The notes under the pieces: model-generated | What the model saw: only the letters and a program-made list of their open reading frames with translations | What the model was told of the DNA's origin: nothing | Database searches by the model: none | NCBI RefSeq assembly: GCF_002741075.1 | Contig: NZ_CP016634.1 | Coordinates: 3,378,001-3,442,000 of the forward strand | DNA length: 64,000 bases | Origin: Pseudomonas putida | Lineage (GTDB): Bacteria; Pseudomonadota; Gammaproteobacteria; Pseudomonadales; Pseudomonadaceae | Reading direction: 5' to 3' | Position numbers and translations under genes: made by a program | In this document: positions 35,579-59,704 of the stretch, in pieces | How the letters are laid out: every line of letters starts with the position of its first letter | Numbering within the stretch: position 1 is the first letter of the stretch

Positions 35579-35588
35579 TTGTACACAA
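35579..35588. promoter_or_regulatory. Purine-operator palindrome, pucM side
   Basis: TTGTACACAA, extended to AAATTGT-AC-ACAATTT with 7-bp complementary arms. It fits the GT-N-AC core of FadR-type GntR operators. 109 bases upstream of the pucM ATG. Confidence 0.6.
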
Positions 35589-35772
35589 TTTTTTGAACCC
35601 CTCTTGCACAACCCCCTCACCCTCTCGATAAATGCAGCATTCGCCGCAAAGACAGGCCCCATGCCGACCTTGATGTCGTTATCTGACCGATCAGGCAGGT
35701 TTATTGCAATCGATTCCCAGCCGACAAAAGGGAAGAAATGCGGAAAAACAGGCTTACAAATGATTCAAGAAG

Positions 35773-35782
35773 TTGTATACAA
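35773..35782. promoter_or_regulatory. Purine-operator palindrome, puuE side
   Basis: Perfect palindrome TTGTATACAA, 78 bases upstream of the puuE GTG. The same decamer is found before the glcG-like gene, gcl and the NCS1 permease. Confidence 0.65.
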
Positions 35783-35859
35783 TCACCCTCATCCGGTGGT
35801 GCGACATCCCGACGCGGTCCGCCCACCACCCGCACTAACGTACAAGAAGGAAGACTGCA

Positions 35860-36786
35860 GTGAGCGCTGACTACCCTCGCGACCTGATCGGTTACGGCAA
35901 CAACCCACCTCACCCGCACTGGCCGGGGAATGCACGCATCGCTCTGTCCTTCGTGCTCAACTATGAAGAAGGCGGCGAACGCAACGTCCTGCACGGTGAC
36001 AAGGAGTCCGAAGCCTTCCTGTCCGAAATGGTTGCCGCTCAGCCTCTGCAAGGCGTGCGCAACATGAGCATGGAGTCGCTCTACGAATACGGCAGCCGCG
36101 CCGGCGTCTGGCGCCTGCTCAAGCTGTTCAAGGAAACCGGCGTTCCCCTGACCATCTTCGCCGTCGCCATGGCCGCCCAGCGCCATCCTGACGTGATCCG
36201 CGCCATGGTCGAAGCCGGCCACGAGATCTGCAGCCACGGCTACCGCTGGATCGACTACCAGTACATGGATGAGCAGCAAGAACGCGAGCACATGCTCGAA
36301 GCCATCCGCATCCTCACCGAACTGACCGGCGAGCGACCGCTGGGCTGGTACACCGGCCGCACTGGCCCGAACACCCGCCGCCTGGTGATGGAGGAAGGTG
36401 GCTTCCTCTATGACAGCGACACCTACGACGATGACCTGCCCTACTGGGAGCCGAACAACCCGACCGGCAAGCCGCACCTGGTGATCCCCTACACCCTGGA
36501 CACCAACGACATGCGCTTCACCCAGGTCCAGGGCTTCAACTGTGGCGAGCAGTTCTTCCAGTACCTCAAGGATGCCTTCGACGTGCTCTACGCAGAAGGT
36601 GCCGAAGCGCCGAAGATGCTGTCGATCGGCCTGCACTGCCGTCTGGTCGGCCGCCCGGCTCGCCTGGCCGCCCTCAAGCGCTTCGTCGAATACGCCAAGA
36701 GCCATGACCAGGTCTGGTTCGCCCGCCGCGTGGACATCGCCCGCCACTGGCACGCCACCCACCCGTACAAGAACGAGAACGCCTGA
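35860..36786 (+). CDS. puuE: Allantoinase PuuE (polysaccharide-deacetylase fold)
   Basis: 308 residues. Opens the hydantoin ring of allantoin to allantoate; PuuE is the cofactor-independent, NodB-like type unrelated to AllB. Landmarks: RDLIGYGNNPPHPHWPGNAR start, NYEEGGERNVLHGD, SHGYRWIDYQYMDEQQEREHM, and GWYTGRTGPNTRRLV. The conserved residues of the NodB metal site are modified as in other PuuE proteins. GTG start at 35860, with AAGGAAG 6 bases upstream. The stop overlaps the uraD ATG (ATGA), and allA and puuD follow, making a urate/allantoin operon. Confidence 0.95.
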   Translation: MSADYPRDLIGYGNNPPHPHWPGNARIALSFVLNYEEGGERNVLHGDKESEAFLSEMVAAQPLQGVRNMSMESLYEYGSRAGVWRLLKLFKETGVPLTIFAVAMAAQRHPDVIRAMVEAGHEICSHGYRWIDYQYMDEQQEREHMLEAIRILTELTGERPLGWYTGRTGPNTRRLVMEEGGFLYDSDTYDDDLPYWEPNNPTGKPHLVIPYTLDTNDMRFTQVQGFNCGEQFFQYLKDAFDVLYAEGAEAPKMLSIGLHCRLVGRPARLAALKRFVEYAKSHDQVWFARRVDIARHWHATHPYKNENA

Positions 36787-37301
36787 TGACTGCCTTCAAG
36801 ACCCTCAAGCCATCGACCCTGGACCGCGACGCCTTCGTCAAGGTCTTCGCCGACATCTATGAGCACTCGCCGTGGGTTGCCGAAAAAGCCTACGACCTGG
36901 GTCAGCTGGGCGAACTGGACGAGATCGAGGCGCTGCACCAGCGCATGAGCGACATCCTGCTCAGCGCCAACCATGAAGACCAACTGGCGCTGATCAACGC
37001 TCACCCGGACTTGGCCGGCAAGGCTGCCATCCAGGGCGAGCTGACCGAATCCAGCACCAATGAACAGGCCGGCGCCGGCATCCACCAGTGCACCGCCGAA
37101 GAGTTCGCCCGCTTCACCGAACTCAACGATGCCTATAAAGCCAAGTTCAAGTTCCCGTTCATCATGGCGGTCAAGGGCAGCAACCGGCACCAGATCCTCG
37201 CCTCCTTCGAGAAACGCATCCACAACGACGCCGATGCCGAATTCAAGGAAGCCCTGGCGCAGATCAACCTGATCGCCCTGTTCCGCCTGCTGCAGCTTTA
37301 A
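36786..37301 (+). CDS. uraD: 2-oxo-4-hydroxy-4-carboxy-5-ureidoimidazoline (OHCU) decarboxylase
   Basis: 171 residues. Decarboxylates OHCU stereospecifically to S-(+)-allantoin, the third step of urate breakdown. The catalytic histidine His73 is in LINAHPDLAGKAA; other family blocks are FADIYEHSPWVAEKAY and FKFPFIMAVKG with the following RHQILASFEKRI helix. Translation is coupled to puuE by a 1-base overlap of stop and start. This free-standing protein lacks the HIU-hydrolase fusion seen in some bacteria, because pucM is separate and divergent. Confidence 0.95.
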   Translation: MTAFKTLKPSTLDRDAFVKVFADIYEHSPWVAEKAYDLGQLGELDEIEALHQRMSDILLSANHEDQLALINAHPDLAGKAAIQGELTESSTNEQAGAGIHQCTAEEFARFTELNDAYKAKFKFPFIMAVKGSNRHQILASFEKRIHNDADAEFKEALAQINLIALFRLLQL

Positions 37302-37395
37302 CAGACGGTGCGATGGCCTGCCCCGCGTGCGCGACACGCTCGCCCCGGGGCCTGGCCCACACCCTAAACAGAACACAGAACAAAGAGATAACCGC

Positions 37396-37899
37396 ATGCG
37401 CACTTTAGTGATCGAGCCCCTGACCAAAGAAGCCTTCGCCCCTTTCGGTGACGTGATCGAAACCGATGGCAGCGACCACTTCATGATCAACAACGGGTCG
37501 ACCATGCGCTTCCACAAGCTCGCCACGGTCGAGACCGCCGAGCCTGAGGACAAAGCGATCATCAGCATCTTCCGCGCCGACGCCCTGGAGATGCCATTGA
37601 CCGTACGCATGCTGGAACGCCATCCGCTGGGCAGCCAGGCTTTCATCCCGCTGCTCGGCAACCCCTTTCTGATCGTGGTCGCGCCAGTTGGCGATGCACC
37701 TGTATCAGGCTTGGTCCGTGCCTTCCGCAGCAATGGCAGGCAGGGCGTTAATTACCATCGCGGCGTCTGGCACCACCCGGTGCTGACGATCGAAAAGCGG
37801 GATGATTTCCTGGTGGTTGATCGCAGTGGTTCCGGCAACAACTGCGATGAGCATTACTTCACCGAGGATCAGATGCTGATCCTCAATCCCCACCAATAA
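37396..37899 (+). CDS. allA: Ureidoglycolate lyase AllA
   Basis: 167 residues. Cleaves S-ureidoglycolate to glyoxylate and urea. Family motifs: IEPLTKEAFAPFGDVIET at the start, FRADALEMPLTVRMLERHPLGSQAFIPL, then NYHRGVWHHPVLTI with the active-site-region His pair. It lies 94 bases after uraD. The enzyme that makes its substrate from allantoate (allantoicase, alc) is not encoded in the window, although it often lies beside allA. Glyoxylate made here would enter the gcl operon 10 kb downstream and urea the transporter at 54.6 kb. Confidence 0.93.
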   Translation: MRTLVIEPLTKEAFAPFGDVIETDGSDHFMINNGSTMRFHKLATVETAEPEDKAIISIFRADALEMPLTVRMLERHPLGSQAFIPLLGNPFLIVVAPVGDAPVSGLVRAFRSNGRQGVNYHRGVWHHPVLTIEKRDDFLVVDRSGSGNNCDEHYFTEDQMLILNPHQ

Positions 37900-37970
37900 G
37901 AAAAGGTCGGTCATCCGAGGCAAAGCAGTCATGCAGAGCCTGAATGGGTGACCGGCAAGAGGTACATACT

Positions 37971-39299
37971 GTGGAAGCACACCTTCACGAATGGCTGAAC
38001 CTGAGCATCCGCTGGGTTCACATGATCACCGGTGTCGCCTGGATCGGTGCATCGTTCTACTTCGTCTGGCTGGAAAACAACCTGAACCGGAGCAATCCGC
38101 GCGACGGTTTGTCGGGTGACCTTTGGGCCATCCACGGCGGTGGTATCTACCACCTCGAGAAGTACAAGCTCGCCCCGCCGAAGATGCCCGAGAACCTGCA
38201 CTGGTTCAAATGGGAAGCCTACTTCACCTGGATGTCCGGTATCGCCCTGCTCTGCGTGGTGTTCTACTGGAACCCGACCCTGTACCTGTTGGCACCTGGC
38301 AGCACCCTGAGCGGTGCCGAGGGCGTGGCCATCGGTATCGGTTCGCTGGTGGCCGGCTGGTTCATCTATGACTTCCTGTGCGACTCGCCACTGGGCAAGA
38401 AACCCGCCCTGCTGGGTGGCGTGCTGTTCGTTCTGATCATCGCGGCTTGCTTCGGCTTCAGCCTGGTGTTCAGCGGTCGCGGTGCCTACCTGCACACCGG
38501 CGCGATCATCGGCACCATCATGGTCGGTAACGTGTTCCGCATCATCATGCCAGCCCAGCGCCAGCTGGTGGCGGCCATCGAGAAGAACGAAACCCCTGAC
38601 CCGGTCCTGCCGGCCAAGGGCCTGCTGCGTTCGCGTCACAACAACTACTTCACCCTGCCGGTGCTGTTCATCATGATCAGCAACCACTTCCCGAGCACCT
38701 ACGGCAGCCAGTACAACTGGCTGATCCTGGCCGGGATCGCAGTAGCCGCGGTACTGATCCGTCACTACTTCAACACCCGCCACGACAGCAACAAGTACGC
38801 CTGGACCCTGCCTGTCGGCGCCCTGGCGATGATCTGCCTGGCCTATGTGACCGGTCCGAAGCCAATGCCGAGCGCACCTGAGCAAGCCGCGGCGAAGGTC
38901 GAGTACCAACCGCTGCCGGCAACCGCCATCGGTGGCAAGACCGCTGCCGAGCAACGTGCCGAAGACGCCGCCAAGGCCGCCGAGGCACCTGCCGCACCGG
39001 CCGAAGCACCTGCCCAGGCAACCGCCCAGGCCGCCCCGGGTGGTTTCGAGAAGATCCACAACGTCATCCAGGAACGCTGCACCGTGTGCCACTCGGCCAA
39101 GCCGACCAGCCCGCTGTTCAGCGCCGCGCCTGCCGGCGTGATGTTCGACACCCCGCAGCAGATCCAGGCCCAGGCCGCGCGCATCCAAGCGCAGGCGGTC
39201 GCCAGCCAGATCATGCCGCTGGGCAACATCACCCAGATGACCCAGGAAGAACGCAACATGGTCGGTGCCTGGATCGCCAAAGGCGCTCCGGTCAACTGA
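37971..39299 (+). CDS. puuD: Membrane urate hydroxylase PuuD with cytochrome c domain
   Basis: 442 residues. Oxidises urate to 5-hydroxyisourate at the inner membrane and passes electrons to the respiratory chain, replacing soluble uricase. The N-terminal DUF989 domain has about eight helices (HEWLNLSIRWVHMITGVAWI, then GDLWAIHGGGIYHLEKYK and RSRHNNYFTLPVLFIMISNH). After an Ala/Pro/Glu linker (~310-355), a C-terminal cytochrome c carries CTVCH at about residue 370 and a methionine in ASQIMPLGN as likely axial ligand. The GTG at 37971 is chosen for AAGAGG 7 bases upstream and the usual MEAHLHEW start; an ATG at 37944 is possible. Confidence 0.93.
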   Translation: MEAHLHEWLNLSIRWVHMITGVAWIGASFYFVWLENNLNRSNPRDGLSGDLWAIHGGGIYHLEKYKLAPPKMPENLHWFKWEAYFTWMSGIALLCVVFYWNPTLYLLAPGSTLSGAEGVAIGIGSLVAGWFIYDFLCDSPLGKKPALLGGVLFVLIIAACFGFSLVFSGRGAYLHTGAIIGTIMVGNVFRIIMPAQRQLVAAIEKNETPDPVLPAKGLLRSRHNNYFTLPVLFIMISNHFPSTYGSQYNWLILAGIAVAAVLIRHYFNTRHDSNKYAWTLPVGALAMICLAYVTGPKPMPSAPEQAAAKVEYQPLPATAIGGKTAAEQRAEDAAKAAEAPAAPAEAPAQATAQAAPGGFEKIHNVIQERCTVCHSAKPTSPLFSAAPAGVMFDTPQQIQAQAARIQAQAVASQIMPLGNITQMTQEERNMVGAWIAKGAPVN

Positions 39300-39448
39300 C
39301 GTTGCACGCTGTACCCCACGTCAAGCTGTAAGTAGTACGTAGCTAGCATCGAGCTAGGACGCCAGAGCGGGAACCCCAGGCTTTCGAGCCTGCCACCCTG
39401 GCGTCCGACGCTTGGATCCGAGAATAAAAACAAAACTCGAGGTGCTGC

Positions 39449-40801
39449 ATGTCCGAGTCCCGCAAGGCGTACATCCCCGTTGCGCCCCCACGACAGCCTC
39501 TGCCCCTGTTCCAACTGATCCTGGTGGGTCTGCAACATGTACTGCTGATGTACGGGGGCGCGATTGCCGTGCCTTTGATCATCGGCCAGGCCGCCGGACT
39601 GTCTCGTGAAGAAGTCGCTTTCCTGATCAACGCCGACCTGCTGGTCGCTGGCGTTGCCACCATGGTTCAATCGTTCGGTATCGGTCCCGTCGGCATTCGC
39701 ATGCCGGTGATGATGGGTGCCAGCTTCGCTGCCGTCGGCAGCATGGTCGCCATGGCCGGCATGCCCGGCGTAGGCCTGCAGGGGATCTTCGGCGCGACCA
39801 TCGCCGCCGGATTCTTCGGCATGCTGATCGCCCCGTTCATGTCCAAAGTCGTGCGGTTCTTCCCCCCACTGGTCACCGGCACCGTCATCACCTCGATCGG
39901 CCTGTCGCTGTTCCCGGTCGCGGTCAACTGGGCCGGTGGTGGTCAGGAAGCCGATACCTTCGGCTCGCCGATCTACCTGCTGGTCGCAGGCCTGGTACTG
40001 GCGGTCATCCTGCTGATCAACCGCTTCATGCGGGGGTTCTGGGTCAATGTCTCGGTGCTGGTCGGCATGGGTCTGGGCTATGTCCTGGCCGGCTCGATCG
40101 GCATGGTGGATCTCTCCGGTCTGTCCGAGGCACCGTGGCTGCAAGTGGTGACGCCACTGCACTTCGGCATGCCGACCTTCAGCCTGGCCCCGATCCTGTC
40201 CATGTGCCTGGTGGTGGTGATCATTTTCGTCGAGTCCACCGGCATGTTCCTCGCGCTGGGCAAGGTTACCGACCGTGAAGTCACCCCTGGCATGCTGCGT
40301 CGTGGCCTGATGTGCGACGCCGGCGCATCGTTCGTGGCGGGTTTCTTCAACACCTTCACCCACTCCTCCTTCGCCCAGAACATCGGTCTGGTACAGATGA
40401 CCGGGGTCCGCTGCCGCTACGTCACCATCGTCGCTGGCGCCCTGCTCATCCTGCTCAGCCTGCTGCCGAAGGCGGCCTTCCTGATCGCCTCGATCCCGCC
40501 TGCGGTACTGGGCGGGGCGTCCATCGCCATGTTTGGCATGGTCACCGCCACAGGCATCAAGATCCTTCAGGAAGCGGACATCTCCGACCGTCGTAATCAG
40601 TTGCTGGTCGCGGTCAGCGTAGGCTTTGGCCTGATCCCTGTGGTCCGTCCAGAGTTCTTCGCGCAGATGCCACAGTGGATGGAACCTATCACCCACAGTG
40701 GTATCGCCATGGCAACGGTCAGTGCCCTGGTGCTGAACCTGCTGTTCAACATCCTGGGTGGCGCCGAGCGCGCCGTGCATAACGCAGCCCACCAGCATTG
40801 A
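39449..40801 (+). CDS. NCS2-family urate/xanthine permease
   Basis: 450 residues, fourteen-helix nucleobase-ascorbate transporter. Signatures: GLQHVLLMYGGAIAVPLIIG in TM1, GIRMPVMMGASFAAVGSM, VVVIIFVESTGMFLALGKV near TM8 with the substrate-binding Glu, and NTFTHSSFAQNIGLVQMTGV, the QN-type motif of TM10. It probably imports urate or xanthine with protons, feeding PuuD just upstream (149-base gap). The choice between xanthine, urate and uracil cannot be made from sequence alone; context favours urate/xanthine. Confidence 0.9.
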   Translation: MSESRKAYIPVAPPRQPLPLFQLILVGLQHVLLMYGGAIAVPLIIGQAAGLSREEVAFLINADLLVAGVATMVQSFGIGPVGIRMPVMMGASFAAVGSMVAMAGMPGVGLQGIFGATIAAGFFGMLIAPFMSKVVRFFPPLVTGTVITSIGLSLFPVAVNWAGGGQEADTFGSPIYLLVAGLVLAVILLINRFMRGFWVNVSVLVGMGLGYVLAGSIGMVDLSGLSEAPWLQVVTPLHFGMPTFSLAPILSMCLVVVIIFVESTGMFLALGKVTDREVTPGMLRRGLMCDAGASFVAGFFNTFTHSSFAQNIGLVQMTGVRCRYVTIVAGALLILLSLLPKAAFLIASIPPAVLGGASIAMFGMVTATGIKILQEADISDRRNQLLVAVSVGFGLIPVVRPEFFAQMPQWMEPITHSGIAMATVSALVLNLLFNILGGAERAVHNAAHQH

Positions 40802-40936
40802 GCCCCGGGCGGTAGCCCTGCCGCCCCGCTCTTCCATGCAGTAACCGCAACACCGGTGACCCACGCATGTGGGTCGCAGGGGGCGCGCTTGCGCGTCAAA
40901 AAACCACAAACAAGAACAAGAACCGGGAATCTCAAC

Positions 40937-42857: not shown

Positions 42858-42867
42858 TGCACTGAAA

Positions 42868-42901
42868 CGTCACAGCGCCCCTAATAGGGGGCGCTGTGAC
42901 G
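42868..42901. terminator. Long hairpin after the second tsx-like gene
   Basis: CGTCACAGCGCCCC and GGGGGCGCTGTGACG form a near-perfect 14-bp stem with a 5-base loop, 10 bases after the stop. It has no T-run on the plus strand and separates this gene from the convergent small gene at 42946. Confidence 0.7.
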
Positions 42902-42945
42902 CTCAATCCTAGAAATATCATTACCCCCAAACTTCCCAAGCTGCT

Positions 42946-46234: not shown

Positions 46235-46364
46235 GTTTGCCTGCATCCCGTGGTTTGAGTGGGTCGATTCTAGCCCAAAGAGGCCGCCTTGAGCGCCCGA
46301 CAAGGCCGGTGCTACCATGCCGAACCCTCTCTTAGAGGTGGCCAGACAAAGGAAGATTCCCGAC

Positions 46365-46976
46365 ATGAGCACCATTCGCGAGCGCAACAAGGAACTGATC
46401 CTGCGCGCGGCCAGCGAAGAATTCGCCGACAAGGGCTTCGCCGCCACCAAGACCAGCGACATCGCCGCCAAGGCCGGCCTGCCCAAGCCAAACGTCTATT
46501 ACTATTTCAAATCCAAGGAAAACCTCTATCGCGAGGTCCTTGAAAGCATCATCGCGCCGATCATGCAGGCCTCCACGCCGTTCAACGCCGACGGCGACCC
46601 CAAAGAAGTGCTCAGCGGCTACATCCGCTCGAAGATCCGCATCTCCCGCGACCTGCCCCACGCCTCCAAGGTGTTTGCCAGCGAGATCATGCACGGTGCA
46701 CCGCACCTCTCGCCCAACCAGGTGCAGCAGCTCAACGACCAGGCGCGGCACAACATCGAGTGCATCCAGCACTGGATCGAGCGCAAGCAGATCGCCCCGG
46801 TCGACCCGCACCACCTGATGTTCAGCATCTGGGCGGCGACGCAGACCTACGCCGACTTCGACTGGCAGATCTCCGTGGTCACCGGCAAGCCCAAGCTGGC
46901 CGACAGTGACTATGACGCGGCAGCCGAGACCATCATCCGGCTGGTGCTCAAAGGCTGCGAGCCCGAGACAGACTGA
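46365..46976 (+). CDS. TetR-family regulator, RutR-like
   Basis: 203 residues. N-terminal TetR helix-turn-helix ([19 protein letters not shown], then [20 protein letters not shown]) and a YcdC/RutR-type ligand domain: [20 protein letters not shown] and [20 protein letters not shown] with a following VTGK. In E. coli RutR this pocket senses uracil/thymine and controls pyrimidine use. Here it sits between purine- and glyoxylate-degradation genes, so a pyrimidine, purine or beta-ureido effector is plausible but unproven. AGGAAG lies 9 bases before the ATG. A very long hairpin separates it from the convergent glcG-like gene. Confidence 0.87.
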
Positions 46977-47053: not shown

Positions 47054-47494
47054 TTACGCTGCTACGCCAGCATCGGCCTTAAGCCCCGCCTCCTCGATCG
47101 CACTGATCGCGCATTGCTCGTCGATATCCGACGTATCTCCGCTGATCCCTACAGCACCTAGCACCTTGCCTGCCTGATCACGAATCAGCACACCACCGGG
47201 CGCCGGCACCACCGGGCTTTCGCCCAGACCATTGAGCGCGGCGAAGAACGCCGGGCGCTGCTGCGCATCCAGCGCCAGCAGGCGCGAGCCCTTGCCCAGG
47301 GCGACGGCCCCCCAGGCCTTGCCCATGGCCACCTGCGGCCGCAGCAGGCTGGCACCATCCTCGCGCTGCAGCGCCAGCAGGTGCCCGCCCGCGTCCAGTA
47401 CCGCCACCGTCAAGGGGGCGGCGTTGATCTTGCGACCCGCTGCCAGCGCGGCGTTTACCAGGCTGACGGCGACTTTGAGGGTCAATGCGTTCAT
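47054..47494 (-). CDS. GlcG/HbpS-family protein
   Basis: 146 residues. HbpS/GlcG domain: LTLKVAVSLVNAALAAGRKI, the PLTVAVLDAGGHLLALQRED strand, a RPQVAMGKAWGAVALGKGSR helix, VPAPGGVLIRDQAGKVLGAV and a GDTSDIDEQCAISAIEEAGL end. Family members occur in glycolate/glyoxylate, propanediol and haem contexts; HbpS binds haem. Here it is divergent from gcl, with matching palindromes toward each gene, so a role in glyoxylate metabolism is likely though the chemistry is unknown. The ATG at 47492-47494 has AGAGGACC upstream. Confidence 0.87.
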   Translation of the reverse strand: MNALTLKVAVSLVNAALAAGRKINAAPLTVAVLDAGGHLLALQREDGASLLRPQVAMGKAWGAVALGKGSRLLALDAQQRPAFFAALNGLGESPVVPAPGGVLIRDQAGKVLGAVGISGDTSDIDEQCAISAIEEAGLKADAGVAA

Positions 47495-47577
47495 GGAAAG
47501 GTCCTCTTCTTGTTGTGAGAAGCCCTGAGGGCAGTTGAAAACCGGATAGTGACAATAGAACACAACGGCCAGAATTT

Positions 47578-47587
47578 TTGTATACAA
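47578..47587. promoter_or_regulatory. Purine-operator palindrome, glcG-like side
   Basis: TTGTATACAA in AT-rich flanks (TTTTTGTATACAATATTT), 84 bases upstream of the glcG-like ATG. Identical decamer to the sites before puuE, gcl and the NCS1 permease. Confidence 0.65.
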
Positions 47588-47717
47588 TATTTTTAGACTA
47601 TCGTGCACGATCAGACGAAACGCCGTTTTCACAGGCTTCCCGACGAAAGCCACCCTTGCTGATGAAAATGGATTGACCTAAGGCGCCGAGCGTGAATACA
47701 CTCTGTCGCAACGCAAG

Positions 47718-47727
47718 TTGTATACAA
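47718..47727. promoter_or_regulatory. Purine-operator palindrome, gcl side
   Basis: TTGTATACAA, ending 26 bases upstream of the gcl ATG, a position that would overlap or follow the transcription start and suits a repressor. Confidence 0.65.
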
Positions 47728-47752
47728 TTACAAAATCGATGAGGCACAAACC

Positions 47753-49528
47753 ATGAGCAAAATGAGAGCAATCGATGCAGCCGTTCTGGTCATGCGCCGT
47801 GAAGGTGTAGATACCGCGTTCGGCATCCCGGGGGCTGCTATCAACCCGCTGTACTCGGCCCTGAAGAAAGTCGGTGGCATCGATCACGTCCTCGCTCGCC
47901 ACGTCGAAGGCGCTTCCCACATGGCCGAGGGTTACACCCGCGCCAACCCGGGCAACATCGGTGTGTGCATTGGCACCTCCGGCCCTGCCGGTACCGACAT
48001 GGTGACCGGTCTGTACAGCGCTTCGGCCGACTCCATCCCAATTCTCTGCATCACCGGCCAAGCGCCTCGTGCTCGCCTGCACAAGGAAGACTTCCAGGCC
48101 GTTGACATCACCAACATCGTCAAGCCGGTCACCAAGTGGGCCACTACCGTTCTGGAGCCAGGCCAGGTGCCTTACGCCTTCCAGAAGGCCTTCTACGAAA
48201 TGCGCACTGGCCGTCCAGGCCCTGTGTTGATCGACCTGCCGTTCGACGTGCAGATGGCCGAAATCGAATTCGACATCGACGCCTACGAACCGCTGCCGGT
48301 CCACAAGCCATCCGCCAGCCGCGTCCAGGCTGAAAAAGCCCTGGCCATGCTCAACGAAGCCGAGCGTCCGCTGATCGTTTCCGGCGGTGGCGTGATCAAC
48401 GCCGATGCCAGCGAAAAACTGGTCGAGTTCGCCGAACTGACCGGCGTACCGGTCATCCCGACCCTGATGGGCTGGGGCACCATTCCTGACGACCACCCAC
48501 AGATGGTCGGCATGGTCGGTCTGCAGACTTCGCACCGCTACGGCAACGCCACCCTGCTCAAGTCCGACCTGGTGTTCGGTATCGGTAACCGCTGGGCCAA
48601 CCGCCACACCGGTTCCGTCGACGTCTACACCGAAGGCCGCAAGTTCGTTCACGTGGACATCGAACCGACCCAGATCGGTCGTGTATTCACCCCGGACCTG
48701 GGCATCGTTTCCGACGCAGGCGCCGCATTGGATGCCTTCCTGGAAGTGGCCCGCGAGTGGAAAGCCGCCGGCAAGCTCAAGTGCCGTCGCGAGTGGCTGG
48801 AAGACTGCCAGCAGCGCAAGTCGAGCCTGCAGCGCAAGACCCACTTCGACAACGTGCCGGTCAAGCCGCAGCGCGTCTACGAAGAAATGAACCAGGTCTT
48901 CGGCAAGGACACCTGCTACGTCAGCACCATCGGTCTGTCGCAGATCGCCGGCGCCCAGTTCCTGCACGTGTACAAACCACGCCACTGGATCAACTGCGGT
49001 CAGGCCGGCCCACTGGGCTGGACCATCCCGGCTGCCCTGGGTGTGGTCAAGGCGGACCCTTCGCGCAAAGTGGTCGCGCTGTCCGGTGACTACGACTTCC
49101 AGTTCATGATCGAAGAGCTGGCGGTAGGCGCCCAGTTCAACCTGCCGTACGTCCATGTGCTGGTGAACAACGCCTACCTGGGTCTGATCCGTCAGGCGCA
49201 GCGTGGCTTCGACATGGATTACTGTGTACAACTGGCGTTCGAGAACATCAACGCCACCGAAGCAGGCAGCTACGGCGTCGATCACGTGGCCGTGGTCGAG
49301 GGTCTGGGCTGTAAGGCACTGCGCGTGTTCGAACCGGCCGAAATCGCCCCTGCCCTGCTCAAGGCGCAGAAGATGGCCGAAGAGTTCCGCGTGCCGGTGG
49401 TGGTAGAAGTGATCCTCGAACGCGTGACCAACATTTCCATGGGTACCGAAATCAACGCGGTCAACGAGTTCGAAGACCTCGCCCTGGTCGGCAACGACGC
49501 ACCTACCGCGATCTCGCTGCTGGACTGA
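47753..49528 (+). CDS. gcl: Glyoxylate carboligase (tartronate-semialdehyde synthase)
   Basis: 591 residues. ThDP/FAD enzyme joining two glyoxylates into tartronate semialdehyde plus CO2. Three ThDP-family domains: N-terminal PYR domain with [15 protein letters not shown] and [20 protein letters not shown], a central FAD-type domain, and a PP domain with [20 protein letters not shown] and the [14 protein letters not shown] end of the ThDP motif. Val51 stands where other family members have the catalytic Glu, the known peculiarity of Gcl, so this is not acetolactate synthase. It is first gene of gcl-hyi-glxR-ttuD-pyk and starts 26 bases after a regulatory palindrome. Confidence 0.97.
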
Positions 49529-49585
49529 CCGCCTGACGCCCCCGCGCCGGCTGTGCCGGGGGCCTTCTTCTGCAAGGAGACAACC

Positions 49586-50368
<783 letters not shown>

Positions 50369-51540: not shown

Positions 51541-51677
51541 AAGCCAACACCTGTGAACCTGCGACCACAGGCTCACGCGGTGTCACCGAGCAACACCCGC
51601 CCCTGGTTCGGCCTGCACGGAGGCAGTTCCAGGGGCGTTTTCGATTCTGCAGAACAATAAGATTTTGGGAGCCTGCC

Positions 51678-52952: not shown

Positions 52953-54364
52953 CGCCTGATAAGAAAGTCAAAATCCTCGCGACCCTCGGCCCTGCGATCA
53001 AAGGCATCGATGACATTCGCCAGCTGGTCGAGGCCGGGGTGAACATCTTCCGCCTGAACTTCAGCCACGGCGAGCACGCCGACCACGCCTTGCGCTACCA
53101 GTGGATCCGCGAAGTCGAGCAGCAACTGAACTACCCCCTGGGCATCCTCATGGACCTGCAGGGGCCAAAACTGCGCGTTGGCCGCTTCGCCGATGGCAAG
53201 ATCCAGCTGCAACGCGGCCAGGCCCTGCGCCTGGACCTGGACAAGACCCCGGGCGACGATCGCCGGGTCAACCTGCCGCACCCGGAAATCATCGCTGCGC
53301 TGGAGCCGGGCATGGACCTGCTGCTCGACGACGGCAAGCTGCGCCTGCGAGTGACTGCCAAGCACAGCGATGCCATCGACACCGAAGTGCTCGCCGGCGG
53401 TGAGCTGTCCGACCGCAAAGGCGTGAACGTGCCCCAGGCCGTGCTCGACCTCAGCCCGCTGACCGAAAAAGACCGCCGCGACCTGGCCTTCGGCCTGGAC
53501 CTGGGCGTGGACTGGGTCGCCCTGTCGTTCGTCCAGCGTCCTGAGGACATCGTCGAGGCCCGCCAACTGATCGGCGACCGCGCCTACCTGATGGCCAAGA
53601 TCGAGAAGCCTTCGGCCGTCGAGCAACTGCAAGCGATCGCCGAGCTGTCCGACGCGATCATGGTTGCCCGTGGCGACCTGGGCGTGGAAGTGCCGGCCGA
53701 GAGCGTGCCGCAGATCCAGAAACGCATCATCGACACTTGCCGCCAGCTCGGCCGTCCGGTGGTGGTGGCCACGCAGATGCTCGAGTCCATGCGCTTCTCC
53801 CCTGCCCCGACCCGCGCCGAGGTCACCGACGTGGCCAACGCCGTGGCCGAAGGCACCGACGCGGTCATGCTGTCGGCCGAGACCGCTTCGGGTGAATACC
53901 CGCTGGAAGCGGTGCAGATGATGAGCAAGATCATCCGTCAGGTGGAGAACGGCCCGGACTACCAGGCCCAGCTCGATGTCGGTCGTCCCAAGGCCGAAGC
54001 CACGGTGTCGGATGCCATCAGCTGCGCGATTCGTCGCATCAGCGGCATCCTGCCAGTGGCCGTGCTGGTCAACTACAGCGAGTCGGGCTCCTCGACCCTG
54101 CGCGCTGCGCGCGAGCGTCCACGTGCACCGATCCTCAACCTGACACCGAACCTGGCCACCGCCCGTCGCCTGAGCGTGACCTGGGGCGTGCATTCGGTGG
54201 TCAATGATCGTCTGCGTCAGGTCGACGAGATCTGCTCCACGGCCCTGGAGATCGCCCAGGCTCAAGGCATGGCCAGCCGTGGCGACACGCTGCTGATCAC
54301 CGCCGGTGTGCCTTTCGGCAAGCCAGGGACGACTAATACCCTGCGGATCGAGACGCTGGCCTGA
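52949..54364 (+). CDS. pykF: Pyruvate kinase
   Basis: 471 residues. Converts PEP and ADP to pyruvate and ATP. Motifs: KVKILATLGPAIKGIDDIRQ, VNIFRLNFSHGEHADH, GILMDLQGPKLRVG, the catalytic-lysine region YLMAKIEKPSAVEQLQAI, MVARGDLGVEVPAE and VVVATQMLESM; the C-terminal domain (~345-471) has the allosteric-site fold. It is coupled to ttuD by a 4-base overlap. This is a dedicated pyruvate kinase at the end of the glycerate pathway; Pseudomonas carries another pyk elsewhere. The name pykF versus pyk is uncertain. Confidence 0.95.
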   Translation: MTPDKKVKILATLGPAIKGIDDIRQLVEAGVNIFRLNFSHGEHADHALRYQWIREVEQQLNYPLGILMDLQGPKLRVGRFADGKIQLQRGQALRLDLDKTPGDDRRVNLPHPEIIAALEPGMDLLLDDGKLRLRVTAKHSDAIDTEVLAGGELSDRKGVNVPQAVLDLSPLTEKDRRDLAFGLDLGVDWVALSFVQRPEDIVEARQLIGDRAYLMAKIEKPSAVEQLQAIAELSDAIMVARGDLGVEVPAESVPQIQKRIIDTCRQLGRPVVVATQMLESMRFSPAPTRAEVTDVANAVAEGTDAVMLSAETASGEYPLEAVQMMSKIIRQVENGPDYQAQLDVGRPKAEATVSDAISCAIRRISGILPVAVLVNYSESGSSTLRAARERPRAPILNLTPNLATARRLSVTWGVHSVVNDRLRQVDEICSTALEIAQAQGMASRGDTLLITAGVPFGKPGTTNTLRIETLA

Positions 54365-54373
54365 TACACCCTG

Positions 54374-54393
54374 GGGGCGCTAAGCGCCCCTTT
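54374..54393 (+). terminator. Terminator of the gcl-pyk operon
   Basis: GGGGCGC-TAA-GCGCCCC followed by TTT, 10 bases after the pyruvate-kinase stop; a GCAGGC-TTC-GCCTGC hairpin and REP-like CTCCCACAGG follow immediately (54396-54418). Confidence 0.8.
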
Positions 54394-54557
54394 CGCAGGC
54401 TTCGCCTGCTCCCACAGGTACCTAAAGGTGTGCGACCTTGTGGGGGCTGGCGAGGCTTGCGATGGAGGGCACCACCCTCCCCATGACCAACCAACTGGCG
54501 GAAAACCCGAGGCCCAAACGAGGCCCACCGCTACCCATCCACCTCACTGACTGCCCC

Positions 54558-55433
54558 ATGTACACCAAGAATTTCGTCAACCCGTGCCCCGACTGGGCCA
54601 CGGCCTTGCTCAACGGCTTCAGCCAGGTCCTGCTGCTGCGCAATCCTTTTTGCGGCCTGTGCTGCCTGCTGGCCCTTCTGCTGACCGCCCCGAACCTGGT
54701 CGGCGGAGCCTTGCTCGGTGCCCTGGCCGGCCTGCTCACCGCCCAACGTCGCGGTTATGAACGCGCCGACCGCCAGGCCGGACTGTACAGCTACAACGGT
54801 GTGCTGATCGGTATCCTGATCGCCGCCCTGCTGCCCTGGTCGGCCATCGTACCGCCGCTGATCATCGCCGCCGGTGGTCTCTCCAGCATCCTCACGCACC
54901 AATGGCGCAAGCGCGGCGGCAAACTGCTCATCGCCTATACCGCACCCTTCGTGCTGCTGGGCTGGGGCACCCTGTTGCTGACAGAACCGATGCCCGCCTT
55001 GTACACCGAGGCCAACCCGCTTTACGCCCTGCTGCGTGGCGTAGGCCAGATCTTCCTGCTGGACAATCCGTTGGCCGGCCTGCTGATCGTCATCGGCATG
55101 CTCGTGGCCAACCCCTACGCCACGCTCTGGGCCTTGCTGGGCTCGGCCATCGGCGGCGGCGTGGCGCTGCTGGCAGGTGAAGCCCAAGCGGCCTGGATGG
55201 GATTGTTCGGTTTCAATGCTGCGCTCGCCGCCCTAGCCTTCAGCCGCCAGGGCGAGCGCCCTTGGGTGACCCTGCTGGCCATTGCCGTGGCCTTGCTGCT
55301 GCAACCTGTCTTCAACCTGATGCCGATCGCCAGCCTAACCGCCCCCTTCGTCACCGCTTGCTGGCTGATGCATGTGGGCAGCCATCTGCAGCAACTGAGC
55401 CAACGCCGCAACGCCGATCGCTTGCACAGCTAA
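54558..55433 (+). CDS. Urea transporter (UT family)
   Basis: 291 residues, ten membrane helices in two repeats. UT-family marks: FSQVLLLRNPFCGLCCLLAL and its second-repeat counterpart GQIFLLDNPLAGLLIVIGML (the L-x-N-P selectivity-filter motifs), plus YSYNGVLIGI and LFGFNAALAALAF. It forms a passive urea channel in the inner membrane. Urea is released twice in allantoate breakdown, so a transporter next to the glyoxylate operon is metabolically sensible. The ATG at 54558 starts MYTKNFVNPCPDW; an upstream in-frame ATG (54483) would add 25 polar residues. RBS poor at both. Confidence 0.85.
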   Translation: MYTKNFVNPCPDWATALLNGFSQVLLLRNPFCGLCCLLALLLTAPNLVGGALLGALAGLLTAQRRGYERADRQAGLYSYNGVLIGILIAALLPWSAIVPPLIIAAGGLSSILTHQWRKRGGKLLIAYTAPFVLLGWGTLLLTEPMPALYTEANPLYALLRGVGQIFLLDNPLAGLLIVIGMLVANPYATLWALLGSAIGGGVALLAGEAQAAWMGLFGFNAALAALAFSRQGERPWVTLLAIAVALLLQPVFNLMPIASLTAPFVTACWLMHVGSHLQQLSQRRNADRLHS

Positions 55434-55477
55434 AACACAGCCCCTAGGCTCTGCCCATCGCACAATGGAACGAGCCC

Positions 55478-56302
55478 ATGGAAAACCCTGCGAGCCTGCG
55501 CGAGCGGCTCTACGTCGTCGTCTTCCAGACCGACACCGTCGCCGGCCGACGCTTCGACAAAATCCTGCTCTTGATCATCCTCGCCAGCCTGGTGACGGTG
55601 ATCCTCGATAGCATCGACGAAGTCCACCAGGGCTACGCCGGCCTGCTGGCCATGATCGAGTGGGGCTTCACGGCGATCTTCCTGGTGGAGTACCTGGCCC
55701 GGCTGTACTGCTCGCCCAAGCCCCTGCGCTATGCCTTCAGTTTCTACGGGCTGGTCGATTTGCTGGCGATCGTGCCGGGAATCATCGCGCTGTACTACAG
55801 CGACGCCCAGTACCTGCTGATCGTGCGGGTCATCCGGATGCTGCGGATCTTCCGCGTGCTCAAGCTCAGCCCCTACCTCAAGCAGGCCCATTACCTGCTG
55901 GCAGCGCTGCAGGGCAGCAAGCAGAAGATCATCGTCTTTCTGGTGAGCGTCTCCACACTGGTGACGGTGTTCGGCACTCTGATGTATGTGGTCGAAGGCC
56001 CTGAACATGGCTTCACCAGCATTCCCAAAGGCATCTACTGGGCCATCGTTACCCTCACCACCGTGGGCTTCGGCGACATCGTGCCCAAGACCCCGCTGGG
56101 CCAGGTACTGTCGTCGCTGGTGATGATTACCGGTTACTCGATCATCGCGGTGCCTACCGGCATCTTCACCGCCGAACTGGCCAATGCCTTGCGCGGCGAA
56201 CAGCTGCAACACGACTGCCCTACCTGTCGCAAGAACACCCACGACCATGGCGCCGCATTCTGCTCACGCTGCGGCAATGCATTGTTCCCGAAAAACGAAT
56301 AA
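55478..56302 (+). CDS. Voltage-gated potassium channel (Kv-type ion transporter)
   Basis: 274 residues, six-helix ion_trans fold. The S4 voltage sensor has Arg every third position (VRVIRMLRIFRVLKLSPYLK), and the pore loop carries the K+ filter TVGFGD in IVTLTTVGFGDIVPKTPLG. A C-terminal cytoplasmic zinc ribbon is formed by CPTC near 248 and CSRCG near 266. The ribbon is common in Pseudomonas homologues. It probably sets membrane potential or K+ efflux. The gene stands alone, 44 bases after the urea-transporter stop. Confidence 0.9.
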   Translation: MENPASLRERLYVVVFQTDTVAGRRFDKILLLIILASLVTVILDSIDEVHQGYAGLLAMIEWGFTAIFLVEYLARLYCSPKPLRYAFSFYGLVDLLAIVPGIIALYYSDAQYLLIVRVIRMLRIFRVLKLSPYLKQAHYLLAALQGSKQKIIVFLVSVSTLVTVFGTLMYVVEGPEHGFTSIPKGIYWAIVTLTTVGFGDIVPKTPLGQVLSSLVMITGYSIIAVPTGIFTAELANALRGEQLQHDCPTCRKNTHDHGAAFCSRCGNALFPKNE

Positions 56303-56395
56303 GCAAAGAGCCATTTGGTCTTTAGACGTCCAAGAACCAAAGGTTATAGTCGCTGGCAAATTGCCAAACATTTGAACCAGAACAAGGATTGCTTC

Positions 56396-57394
56396 GTGAA
56401 AAAGCTCTTCACCGCCTCGCTGCTCGCCGCAGGACTCGCCCTGGGCAACCTGGCCCAGGCCGCTCCGACCCTGCTGAACGTGTCTTATGACGTGATGCGC
56501 GACTTCTACAAGGACTACAACCAGGCGTTCCAAAAGCATTGGGAAGCCGAGCACAATGAAAAGGTCAATGTGCAGATGTCCTTCGGCGGTTCGAGCAAGC
56601 AGGCCCGGGCGGTGATCGATGGCCTGCCGGCCGACGTCATCACCATGAACATGGCCACCGACATCAATGCCCTGGCCGACAACGGCAAGCTGGTCCCGGA
56701 CAACTGGGTTTCGCGCCTGCCGAACAACAGCGCGCCCTTCACTTCGGCCACCGTGTTCATCGTGCGCAAGGGCAACCCCAAGGCCCTGAAGGACTGGCCA
56801 GACCTGCTCAAGGACGGCGTGCAGGTGATCGTGCCCAACCCCAAGACCTCGGGTAACGGCCGCTACACCTACCTCTCCGCCTGGGGCTATGTGCTCAAGC
56901 AGGGCGGCGACGAAGCCAAGGCCCGCGACTTCGTCGGCAAGCTGTTCAAGCAGGCGCCGGTACTCGATACCGGCGGTCGCGCCGCCACCACGACCTTCAT
57001 GACCAACCAGATCGGCGATGTGCTGGTGACCTTCGAGAACGAGGCCGAGATGATCGCCCGCGAGTTCGGTCGCGACCAGTTCGAAGTGGTCTACCCGAGC
57101 GTGTCGGCCGAGGCCGAACCACCGGTGAGCGTGGTCGACAAGGTGGTCGAGCGCAAGAAGTCCCGCCCCATGGCCGAGGAGTACCTCAAATACCTGTGGT
57201 CGCCGGCGGCCCAAGAGATCGCTGCGCAGAACTACCTGCGCCCGCGTGATGCCACCGTACTGGCCAAGTACACCGACCGTTTCCCGAAAGTCGACTTCCT
57301 GTCGGTGGAGAAGACCTTCGGTGACTGGCGCACCGTGCAGAAGACCCACTTCAACGACGGCGGCGTGTTCGACCAGATCTACACCAGCAATTAA
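56396..57394 (+). CDS. sbp: Periplasmic sulfate-binding protein
   Basis: 332 residues. Signal peptide (VKKLFTASLLAAGLALGNLAQA), then a type II periplasmic-binding fold: TLLNVSYDVMRDFYKDYNQAF, the SFGGSSKQARAVIDGLPADV anion-binding region, NPKTSGNGRYTYLSAWGY and the ALY-type closing helix. Delivers sulfate or thiosulfate to the CysTWA transporter, not in the window, although it often follows sbp. GTG start at 56396 with AAGG 8 bases upstream. The AT-rich leader (56303-56395) probably contains CysB sites, but none can be defined by eye. Confidence 0.93.
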   Translation: MKKLFTASLLAAGLALGNLAQAAPTLLNVSYDVMRDFYKDYNQAFQKHWEAEHNEKVNVQMSFGGSSKQARAVIDGLPADVITMNMATDINALADNGKLVPDNWVSRLPNNSAPFTSATVFIVRKGNPKALKDWPDLLKDGVQVIVPNPKTSGNGRYTYLSAWGYVLKQGGDEAKARDFVGKLFKQAPVLDTGGRAATTTFMTNQIGDVLVTFENEAEMIAREFGRDQFEVVYPSVSAEAEPPVSVVDKVVERKKSRPMAEEYLKYLWSPAAQEIAAQNYLRPRDATVLAKYTDRFPKVDFLSVEKTFGDWRTVQKTHFNDGGVFDQIYTSN

Positions 57395-57400
57395 CTGAAA

Positions 57401-57424
57401 AGGGGGCTTCGAGCCCCCTATTTC
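57401..57424 (+). terminator. Terminator of sbp
   Basis: AGGGGGCT-TCG-AGCCCCCT followed by ATTTC, 7 bases after the stop. Confidence 0.8.
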
Positions 57425-57478
57425 ATGCTGTGCACAGGTTCCCCCGCTGTACCCGCAAAAGGACCGGCACGGCGTGCG

Positions 57479-58408
57479 TCAGGCCTGCTGACGGAACACC
57501 AGCGCCTTCAGCCCACCTTCCGGGTCCGCATCTGGAAACTCTGGCGGGTTGTCCAACCGCTCGACGAAGGCCAGCCCCGGCGCATGCTCGGCCATGCCCT
57601 CGATCAGAAAGTCCGGCCCGATGCCTGGGTCGTTGACGCAGGCCAGTACCGTTCCCCCTTCCATCAACAATTCTGGCAAGCGTCGCAGGATCTTGGCGTA
57701 GTCCTGGGTCAGGACGAAACTGCCCCTCTGGAAGGTGGGCGGGTCGATGATGATCAGGTCATAAGGCCCGTACTTGCGCACCTTGCCCCAGGACTTGAAC
57801 AACTCATGGCCCAGGTACGCGACGCGGGATGGGTCATGGTCATTGAGCCGGTGGTTCTCCCGTCCCCGGGACAACGCAGCCTTGGCCATGTCCAGGTTGA
57901 CCACCTGCTGCGCGCCGCCAGCGATCGCCGCCACCGAGAACCCACAGGTGTAGGCGAACAGGTTGAGCACCCGCTTGCCGGTGGCCTGCTCGCGCACCCA
58001 ACGACGTCCGTAGCGCATGTCGAGGAATAGCCCGTTGTTCTGGCGCACCCCCAGGTCAAGCAGGTACTTGAGGCCATCCTCCACCACCGCGCGTTGCTGG
58101 CAAGGCTCGCCGAGCAGCCACTGACCGGGGCTGTCGGGCAGGTAACGGTGCTGGATGAGGATGGCCTGGCCGGCCCATTGCGGGCGCTCAGCGAGGTTGC
58201 GCAGCATCGCTTCCAGTTCGGCCAACTGACCCTCGGGCGGCTCGCGGAACAGCGCCACCAGCAGCACGCCATCCAGCCAATCGACCGTGATCTGCTCAAG
58301 CCCCGGCCAGCAGCGGCCACGGCCGTGGAACAGGCGGCGGGTCTCTTGCGGGGCGGGGTCGAGGGCTGCGAGCAGATGCTGCTCGAGGGTAGGGATCGGC
58401 GAGGTCAT
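57479..58408 (-). CDS. Class I SAM-dependent methyltransferase (RlmI/RlmKL-C-like)
   Basis: 309 residues. C-terminal Rossmann methyltransferase: SAM motif I RVLNLFAYTCGFSVAAIAGG (~145-164), motif II VVNLDMAKAALSRGRENH, and catalytic motif IV DLIIIDPPTFQRGSF (~217-231). The DPPxF motif and the QNNGLFLDMRYGRRWV pre-motif match the Methyltrans_SAM family of 23S rRNA m5C/m2G enzymes. No PUA domain is present, so it differs from RlmI itself; the RNA target is unknown. The neighbours, convergent with sbp and after an EamA gene, give no clue. Confidence 0.82.
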   Translation of the reverse strand: MTSPIPTLEQHLLAALDPAPQETRRLFHGRGRCWPGLEQITVDWLDGVLLVALFREPPEGQLAELEAMLRNLAERPQWAGQAILIQHRYLPDSPGQWLLGEPCQQRAVVEDGLKYLLDLGVRQNNGLFLDMRYGRRWVREQATGKRVLNLFAYTCGFSVAAIAGGAQQVVNLDMAKAALSRGRENHRLNDHDPSRVAYLGHELFKSWGKVRKYGPYDLIIIDPPTFQRGSFVLTQDYAKILRRLPELLMEGGTVLACVNDPGIGPDFLIEGMAEHAPGLAFVERLDNPPEFPDADPEGGLKALVFRQQA

Positions 58409-58476
58409 GATCGGGTCGCAAGCAAAAAAGAAGGCATTCTACCTAATAGTGCTTACTTGAGCGTTGGAGCCGCCAA

Positions 58477-59376
58477 TCACTGTCCCTTCACCGCGATCCT
58501 GGCCGAACGGAACCACCACCCCTGCTGCATCCCCGCTGCAGCCAGCAGGATCGCCGCTACGCCCAGCCACTGCAACGGCGCCAGTCGATGGTCGAAGGCC
58601 ACCCAATCGACCAGGATCGCCGCAATGGGGTAGATGAACGACAGCGCCCCCGTCAGAGCGGTGGGCAGACGCTGGATAGCGCTGTACAGCAGCACGTACA
58701 TCACGCCAGTGTGCACAACCCCCAAGGTCAACAGGCTGGCCAGCGCCGACGTCTCGCCCGGCAGCCCCTCACCGCCCACCCACGGTGCCAGCAGCAGGAT
58801 GCCGGTAGTCACCTGCACCAGCGCGATCATGTGCGGCGGCGTTCCGCTCAGGCGCTTGATGATCAGCGCGGCCACGGCATAGAGAAAGGCCGCACCCAAG
58901 GCCAGAACGATGCCCAACAGGTACTCGCCTGCCCCGCCCTGGCCATTGCCATGGGCACTGACGATGGCCAGCATGCCGAGAAAGGCCAGGCTCAGCCAGG
59001 CCATCTTGGGCAAGGTGATCTTTTCCCCCAAGAACAACGCCGCCAGCCCCACGAGCATGAACGGCTGCACGTTGTAGACCGCCGTGCCAATGGCAATCGA
59101 GGCCTTGGAGTACGAGGCGAACAGCAACACCCAGTTGCCGACGATGGCCATGCCACTGGCCACCGCCAGCAGAAAGGTGGTGCGCGTCAGTACCCCGGGT
59201 TTGAGAAAGCCCATGGCAGCGCAGATCAGCAACAACGTGACGGCGCCGAATACGCAGCGCCAGAACACCACGTCCAGCACCGGTTGTCCGGACACCAGCA
59301 CGAACCAACCGATGGTCCCGGAAATCAGCATGGCGGCGACCATTTCCAGCGAGCCACGGCGCAACGAATTGTCCAT
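58477..59376 (-). CDS. EamA/DMT-family transporter with purine-type operator
   Basis: 299 residues, ten helices in two EamA repeats (AMLISGTIGWFVLVSGQPVL, then ALGAAFLYAVAALIIKRLSG). The second repeat ends GALSFIYPIAAILVDWVAFD. Substrate unknown. Start ATG at 59374-59376 with AGGAGG 7 bases upstream; the frame is open further but not membrane-like. It is divergent from the NCS1 permease, and its upstream region carries TTGTACACAA (59433-59442), the same palindrome as before pucM. This suggests that it exports or imports a purine-pathway intermediate. Confidence 0.87.
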   Translation of the reverse strand: MDNSLRRGSLEMVAAMLISGTIGWFVLVSGQPVLDVVFWRCVFGAVTLLLICAAMGFLKPGVLTRTTFLLAVASGMAIVGNWVLLFASYSKASIAIGTAVYNVQPFMLVGLAALFLGEKITLPKMAWLSLAFLGMLAIVSAHGNGQGGAGEYLLGIVLALGAAFLYAVAALIIKRLSGTPPHMIALVQVTTGILLLAPWVGGEGLPGETSALASLLTLGVVHTGVMYVLLYSAIQRLPTALTGALSFIYPIAAILVDWVAFDHRLAPLQWLGVAAILLAAAGMQQGWWFRSARIAVKGQ

Positions 59377-59432
59377 CTCACACCTCCTGTCGAACATGGC
59401 CACAGTATGCCCAGGGGCCTGCAACCGCAAAC

Positions 59433-59442
59433 TTGTACACAA
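59433..59442. promoter_or_regulatory. Purine-operator palindrome, EamA side
   Basis: TTGTACACAA, extended as CTTGT-AC-ACAAG, 57 bases upstream of the EamA ATG. It is the same variant as the pucM site. Confidence 0.55.
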
Positions 59443-59694
59443 GAATGTCACCTAAGGTGTCATTTTTGTGTGCACTCCTGTCCATCATCGACCCACTCTC
59501 CTACACACTTCTCACTTTCAAGTCTGACCAATCGATCAACTAACAACGATCGCAAAAAATAAAACCTGTTCATTTGGTCAACATATATTTCGCTTATTTC
59601 ATTGACTTAACTTTCAATAGGTTAAGTTGCAAAAAGCCATGTTCTCAAAGTTGCGTCATGCCTGGCATGGAAGTCGCTTTCATGTGCTCATGTT

Positions 59695-59704
59695 TTGTAT
59701 ACAA
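59695..59704. promoter_or_regulatory. Purine-operator palindrome, NCS1 side
   Basis: TTGTATACAA within TTTTGTATACAAAC, 155 bases upstream of the NCS1-permease ATG. Confidence 0.6.

Follow-up and report, generated by a model that had tools for sequence, protein, structure and literature searches.

Five of six palindromes in purine and glyoxylate promoters of a Pseudomonas putida genome as probable operators of a UgmR/GclR-type repressor

Which protein reads the palindrome that recurs in three divergent promoter regions of purine and glyoxylate genes in Pseudomonas putida, and what does it do there? The question is raised by a stretch of 64,000 nucleotides (assembly GCF_002741075.1, contig NZ_CP016634.1, here C2, positions 3378001 to 3442000; this whole 64-kb stretch is called the window), in which the initial annotation had noticed six copies of the motif. 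Our analysis indicates, with a probability of roughly 0.87, that five of the six are operators of one repressor, UgmR (= GclR), which would control purine and glyoxylate genes. The operator set is real, looks functional and is most probably that of this already described repressor, whose regulon is known in outline; the additions made here are an operator map, two further likely targets and a repressor site on a sigma-54-type promoter.

A pattern scan of the window places the copies as follows.

35773, 47578, 47718 and 59695: UgmR-type palindrome TTGTATACAA
35579 and 59433: palindrome TTGTACACAA

All six are where they had been reported and are the sole exact matches to TTGTAYACAA in the 64 kb; each of the three divergent intergenic regions holds two of them, one nearer each gene. 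The core, given earlier as GT-N-AC, is in fact GT-N2-AC. The window contains 10 strand-hits of the pattern against an expectation of 0.04, a number equalled by none of 100 shuffles, and the six palindromes are thus real and far above chance. Across the 5.85 Mb of the genome, distinct sites number 15 (25 strand-hits, compared with 1 for the reversed pattern), six in the window, one at ugmR, one at an NCS2 transporter gene (4.338 Mb) and seven elsewhere. A literature search pairing the letters of the motif with GntR, in the limited set of papers covered, gave no match.

The sites are conserved in relatives. For each gene, the 30 best loci in 99 family genomes were taken and the 450 bp before each of them scanned, with at most one mismatch to TTGTRYACAA. 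A site is present at 30/30 loci of ugmR, 30/30 of puuE (allantoinase), 27/30 of gcl (glyoxylate carboligase) and 28/30 of the NCS2 gene at C2:4338153, where the two misses (L173, L174) are paralogues of 45-46% identity. The probable allantoin importer NCS1 has it in 28 of 30 loci, a set in which many copies carry one mismatch and 12 loci are not close orthologues but homologues of 40-42% identity; LOG loci have it in 2/30. The reversed pattern occurs in the same regions at 0 (ugmR), 1 (gcl), 0 (puuE), 1 (NCS2), 2 (NCS1) and 0 (LOG) loci, and mononucleotide shuffles of the scanned regions contain a site in 26 of 900. Two or more sites are found at 27 gcl and 30 puuE loci. Conserved candidate operators therefore stand upstream of gcl, of urate and allantoin genes and of ugmR itself.

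The abundance of the motif also follows the presence of UgmR. In the 40 of 99 family genomes with an orthologue (E below 1e-100) the median is 2.55 strand-hits per Mb (reversed pattern 0.34), in 13 genomes picked from matches of 37-41% identity, here called UgmR-like, it is 1.2 (reversed 0.56), and in 46 genomes with no UgmR-like gene 0.63 (reversed 0.59). Orthologue-bearing and UgmR-less genomes differ with a Mann-Whitney p of 3e-9, relatedness being ignored. Ten genomes have puuE and no UgmR match better than E 6e-23; they hold 12 copies of puuE, and a site at up to one mismatch is absent from the 700 bp upstream of every one. One of these ten, G091, belongs to genus g6, whose three members among the puuE loci covered (G022, G047 and G075), with a UgmR-like protein, do carry sites. 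In the g5 and g6 genomes examined the UgmR-like gene lies beside puuE or NCS1, with sites in those stretches.

The regulator gene was located just outside the window. A gene for a protein of 251 residues (C2:3374214-3374969, minus strand) lies 3.0 kb upstream of the window start, and its product has the GntR winged helix (PF00392, 62.6 bits) and the FCD domain (PF07729, 82.6 bits). It diverges from an NCS2 permease gene; between the two are an exact motif copy at C2:3375175, 2.8 kb before the window, and a second site with one mismatch. On the other side of the regulator gene are a MIP (aquaporin-type) gene, an amidohydrolase gene that by its position is guanine deaminase, and xdhC, with xdhA further up. 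The gene context of UgmR/GclR, with xdh, guanine deaminase, an NCS2 permease and hiuH/puuE nearby, is thus found, hiuH/puuE being displaced by about 38 kb. Judged by position and targets, the protein is likely UgmR (PA1520) or GclR (PP_4283), and the proposal of a single GntR regulator of the FCD group, encoded outside the window, has become very probable. P. guariconensis LMG 27394 has the identical protein, and named P. putida strains have versions that share 91-96% of its residues.

Sites accompany ugmR wherever it was inspected. Among the best 80 named loci in the matches listed, all 80 have at least one in the 450 bp preceding the gene (up to one mismatch) and 72 have two or more. At 73 named loci the sequence upstream of ugmR extends for 9.6 kb or more; 59 of these have further sites within 10 kb, 52 of them at about 2.3-3.4 kb, the spacing expected for a hiuH/puuE pair, which these (in stretches with unannotated genes) may represent. 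In this genome ugmR is about 38 kb from hiuH/puuE and about 51 kb from the gcl cluster. The near sites are also missing at ugmR of P. guariconensis LMG 27394 (L225) and are present in two other P. guariconensis loci (L228, L272). Between ugmR and hiuH/puuE there are, among others and unlike in most relatives, a gene for a repeat-rich adhesin-like protein of 2162 residues (22943-29431) and type I secretion-like genes (29906-35029), both names being readings of the sequence.

How the sites lie on their promoters was read at each region, and in the lists below an operator is a predicted one. The first region is that of hiuH and puuE.

35117 to 35521, minus strand: hydroxyisourate hydrolase (pucM/hiuH; TIGR02962, 134.8 bits, cut-off 87.45; PF00576)
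35579 to 35588, plus strand: UgmR-type operator, hiuH side, TTGTACACAA; a second, farther site occurs in 30/30 puuE loci (up to one mismatch)
35753 to 35781, plus strand: puuE promoter, with a -35-like CTTACA at 35753-35758, a 17-bp spacer and TATACA at 35776-35781 within the operator
35773 to 35782, plus strand: UgmR-type operator, puuE side, TTGTATACAA; overlaps the -10 box and is kept in 30/30 loci
35860 to 36786, plus strand: allantoinase PuuE (TIGR03212, 548.4 bits, cut-off 424.6)
36786 to 37301, plus strand: OHCU decarboxylase (uraD; TIGR03164, 226.8 bits)
37327 to 37899, plus strand: ureidoglycolate lyase (allA; NF002949, 313.3 bits)
37944 to 39299, plus strand: probable membrane urate oxidase PuuD (open reading frame; no NCBIfam match)
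39449 to 40801, plus strand: NCS2 transporter of the xanthine permease type (TIGR03173, 527.2 bits, cut-off 414.15)

In 27 of the 30 puuE loci, a spacer of exactly 17 bp separates TTTACA or CTTACA from the TATACA that the operator contains; the three exceptions are g6 loci. Because this conserved geometry places TATACA within the palindrome, the puuE operator appears to be the -10 box itself.

At gcl, the first gene of the glyoxylate cluster, the arrangement is different.

47054 to 47653, minus strand: HbpS/GlcG-like protein (PF03928); the listed reading frame overruns the site at 47578, and translation probably begins at the ATG near 47494
47578 to 47587, plus strand: UgmR-type operator, hbpS side; a site is present there in 27/30 gcl loci (up to one mismatch)
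47673 to 47702, plus strand: gcl promoter, with -35 TTGACC at 47673-47678, an 18-bp spacer and -10 TACACT at 47697-47702
47718 to 47727, plus strand: UgmR-type operator, gcl side, 15 nt after the -10 box
47753 to 49528, plus strand: glyoxylate carboligase (gcl; TIGR01504, 1170 bits)

All 27 gcl loci with a near site share TTGACC, the 18-bp spacer and a -10 box (TAGAAT, TACACT or similar), with the operator 10-15 nt later. At both promoters, as at that of NCS1 described below, the position of the operator fits a repressor that would block RNA polymerase. Looping between the paired sites was considered and rejected, because the distances between them differ between promoters (194, 140 and 262 bp here) and between lineages (124-244 bp at puuE and 128-157 bp at gcl in relatives).

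The third region, between eamA and NCS1, has another type of promoter.

58477 to 59451, minus strand: EamA transporter (PF00892), a doubtful target; its start is probably at an internal ATG
59433 to 59474, plus strand: imperfect inverted repeat whose left arm holds TTGTACACAA (arms 59434-59453 and 59455-59474, 85% complementary)
59663 to 59679, plus strand: sigma-54-type -24/-12 element TGGCATGGAAGTCGCTT; found in 21/23 genus loci and 28/30 family loci
59695 to 59704, plus strand: UgmR-type operator of NCS1, at about +7 to +16 if GC is -13/-12; present in 23/23 genus loci (up to one mismatch)
59859 to 61394, plus strand: NCS1 transporter, probable allantoin importer (PF02133, 269.8 bits); its true start may lie somewhat later than 59859
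61408 to 62136, plus strand: protein of the Asp/Glu/hydantoin racemase family, probable allantoin racemase (PF01177, 167 bits)

The NCS1 protein scores below the cut-offs of the allantoin permease models. GG at -24, GC at -12 and the fixed spacing of sigma-54 promoters are all found, as TGGCA-N8-GC, in 21 of the 23 genus loci (this one included), and in all 21 the operator begins 18 nt after the C of the -12 element. In the 28 family loci with TGGCA-N8-GC, the near motif copy comes 18 nt later in 5, 1-3 nt later in 11 and 9-10 nt later in 11, and in L122 none was found within 60 nt after the element. At four other operator regions of this genome the sigma-54-type element was not found. The NCS1 operator would thus sit on a different, activator-dependent type of promoter, which suggests joint control of allantoin uptake by an activator and by urate.

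The site at 59433 is best considered together with the sequence around it. About 190 bp upstream of the sigma-54-type promoter lies the inverted repeat of 59434-59474, 41 bp long, and a genus-wide block is found upstream of NCS1 in the form TGTACACA-N4-TGTCACC-N4-GTGCCA-N3/4-TGTGTGCA, deviating in 2 of 23 loci. That all six sites, this one included, are UgmR operators, with eamA a true member of the regulon, appears unlikely. In its favour are the exact match at 59433, the TGTACACA core of the left arm kept in 21 of the 23 genus NCS1 loci, the arm lying within one mismatch of the motif in 10 of them, and, in more distant lineages, a copy of the motif some 180-210 bp above the one on the NCS1 side. 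The motif is exact in only 2/23, however, the arm belonging elsewhere to a longer conserved repeat, and eamA is the neighbour in only 4/23 loci, while the block itself is kept in 21/23. More probably, the inverted repeat serves the NCS1 promoter from upstream, perhaps as the target of a sigma-54 activator, and is no operator of eamA; the site at 59433-59442, which overlaps its left arm, may differ in kind from the other five. Because the core of the arm is kept in 21 of 23 loci, UgmR might still bind there. Of the initial claim that one regulator links urate breakdown, glyoxylate assimilation and allantoin uptake, the linkage, NCS1 included, is very probable, and what has weakened is the case for eamA as a target.

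NtrC was considered as the reader of the inverted repeat and set aside, the CACC-N3-GGTG centre apparently lacking the spacing of an NtrC site. A strict form of the centre, TGNCACC-N3-GGTGNCA, has a single copy in this genome, the one at NCS1, and is present somewhere in 17 of 21 genomes. It stands at NCS1 in only four of the 21 (this genome, G109, G126 and G133), the others having a slightly different centre there, and the copies away from NCS1 look like chance.

The preferred reading, five operators of UgmR, can be put as a mechanism. With no inducer, a UgmR dimer would occupy TTGTAYACAA (TTGTRYACAA at its own promoter) and block the promoter beneath it: at puuE it would cover the -10 box, at gcl and at the sigma-54-type promoter of NCS1 the region of the start. 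UgmR would be released by uric acid, whether imported or made in the cell, as reported for the P. aeruginosa protein, and the hiuH and puuE operons, the gcl cluster, the NCS2 genes, NCS1-racemase and ugmR itself would then be expressed jointly. At divergent promoters there would be one operator per gene rather than a looping pair of fixed spacing, and 59433, instead of being a UgmR operator, would probably form one arm of a separate element upstream of NCS1. A more tentative step, which we hold at slightly less than even odds, makes the NCS1-racemase operon an AND gate: a sigma-54 activator, possibly responsive to nitrogen, would act through the inverted repeat, and UgmR would block the promoter until urate is present. 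Such a gate seems to have survived the turnover of its operator, as the shifted copies 1-3 or 9-10 nt after the -12 element would still overlap the sigma-54-type start region.

Related systems have been described. In P. aeruginosa, UgmR (PA1520) binds upstream of gcl and of PA1513-PA1518 and represses both, and uric acid relieves the repression (PMC12694930, citing Xu et al. 2022); PA1519, beside PA1520 in number, is an NCS2-type transporter. The likeness lies in a GntR regulator beside an NCS2 gene, with gcl and the urate/allantoin genes PA1513-PA1518 as targets. The differences are that ugmR lies about 38 kb from hiuH/puuE in this genome and that the operator is also found at NCS1-racemase and at a distant NCS2 gene; the passages on P. 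aeruginosa UgmR (PMC12694930) mention no NCS1 gene under its direct control. In P. putida, GclR (PP_4283) is a repressor whose loss activates the gcl pathway (PMC13357446, PMC6978631, PMC11166783). GclR of strain KT2440 likewise belongs to the GntR family, represses the gcl pathway and has a connection with xanthine metabolism, and its gene lies 12 kb from the gcl cluster, compared with about 51 kb in this genome; the relevant passages of the GclR literature deal with gcl and ethylene glycol and give no operator sequence. AllR of Escherichia coli is comparable in that a single repressor ties the use of allantoin to the handling of glyoxylate, which is an effector. AllR belongs to the IclR family and has a different operator.

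Several results weigh against the assignment of the sites to UgmR. Seven of the 15 genomic sites have no evident purine link, which is more than the reversed pattern predicts and is the finding that speaks most strongly against a regulon confined neatly to purine genes. Three gcl loci have no site; one genome (G077) has no UgmR, and the other two (G080 and G043, those g15 gcl loci that were covered) do have it. UgmR-bearing and UgmR-less genomes mostly form separate lineages, so that the comparison of motif abundance between them is not independent. In P. umsongensis GO16, deletion of the UgmR/GclR homologue left growth on ethylene glycol unchanged; gcl is placed differently there and has a LysR regulator. 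Finally, gcl of P. aeruginosa is induced by allantoin, to which UgmR reportedly does not respond (PMC12694930), and therefore another regulator acts there too.

There is a small chance that another GntR/FCD protein reads the sites, either alone or in competition with UgmR, for example a 49%-identical paralogue (C2:796054) or a PA0120-like protein. The paralogue is a GntR/FCD protein of the same genome, sites selected in vitro (SELEX, systematic evolution of ligands by exponential enrichment) for PA0120 and PA3782 lie, according to PMC12694930, upstream of gcl, and in g5 and g6 the same motif is accompanied by UgmR-like proteins of 37-41% identity (the checked ones encoded beside NCS1 or puuE). 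Yet the 16-kb stretch around the paralogue gene has no exact motif, and it is ugmR itself that carries the site, in 30/30 loci and in 80/80 of the best named loci among the matches listed. That the palindromes are chance or a quirk of composition is scarcely credible: the motif is short and has seven genomic copies away from purine genes, but the expectation of 0.04 in the window, the conservation at gcl, puuE, NCS1, NCS2 and ugmR and the association with UgmR all speak against it.

If five of the palindromes are UgmR operators, a raw motif becomes a testable candidate for the operator of UgmR/GclR, which is important both to the use of purines by pseudomonads and to the engineering of P. putida on ethylene glycol, a monomer of polyethylene terephthalate (PET). 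The probable allantoin transporter and the distant purine permease are added as likely direct targets. How purine uptake is coupled with nitrogen status also gains a candidate answer, in a repressor site that lies on a promoter of the sigma-54 type.

The sites away from evident purine genes, in C2 coordinates, are these; the names hemE, gltD, azurin and ccoN come from reading the sequences unless a family match is cited.

3338689: before ccoN
3452193
3724476
4543585: azurin/LOG
4780658: hemE/gltD
5471915
5756839

Gene calls outside the window rest on a heuristic of GC by codon position, which picked some antisense frames (e.g. window 47678-50356). It had been said that a motif equally common before unrelated genes would speak against a regulon, and with 7/15 sites this is partly the case; the LOG and ccoN sites, the two examined, are poorly conserved. 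LOG proteins have a link to purines. Membership of the LOG/azurin site in the regulon is unsupported, with a site in 2/30 LOG loci, this one included, and so is that of the ccoN site, which only 7 of 30 loci within the genus, again including this one, have at up to one mismatch. TTGTGTACAA stands 159 bp before a second ccoN gene (L016:8690).

As to the further targets predicted at the outset, the gntR gene does carry the motif, while xdhA and guaD lack a site of their own and alc is absent. No site at up to one mismatch was found in the upstream stretch of xdhA that was scanned, and no exact site near guaD in a 12-kb stretch (L017), apart from that of ugmR. The xdhA gene has its own divergent GntR/FCD gene (L176:10141-10800). 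Allantoicase (alc) has no match anywhere in the genome, uraD and allA being 25 bp apart (window 36786-37899), so that allantoate must either be handled by a different enzyme or not be processed at all. In G063, alc lies between uraD and allA; it is present in 6 of the 10 genomes tested and missing from G042, G011 and G076. Near gcl, a TetR protein with a RutR-type (YcdC) C-terminal domain is encoded (window 46317-46976); PA1504, a similar gene, is treated as a candidate for the allantoin induction of gcl in PMC12694930.

A last observation concerns the ligand pocket of the regulator. In all 80 UgmR orthologues among the matches listed, a Ser (SGEFH) stands four residues before the His of FH. 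The metal-binding site of FCD proteins consists of an Asp plus three His. PDB 7xp0 has Asp at the position of this Ser, and the three His positions align, which hints that the pocket of UgmR may be unlike that of metal-dependent FCD proteins.

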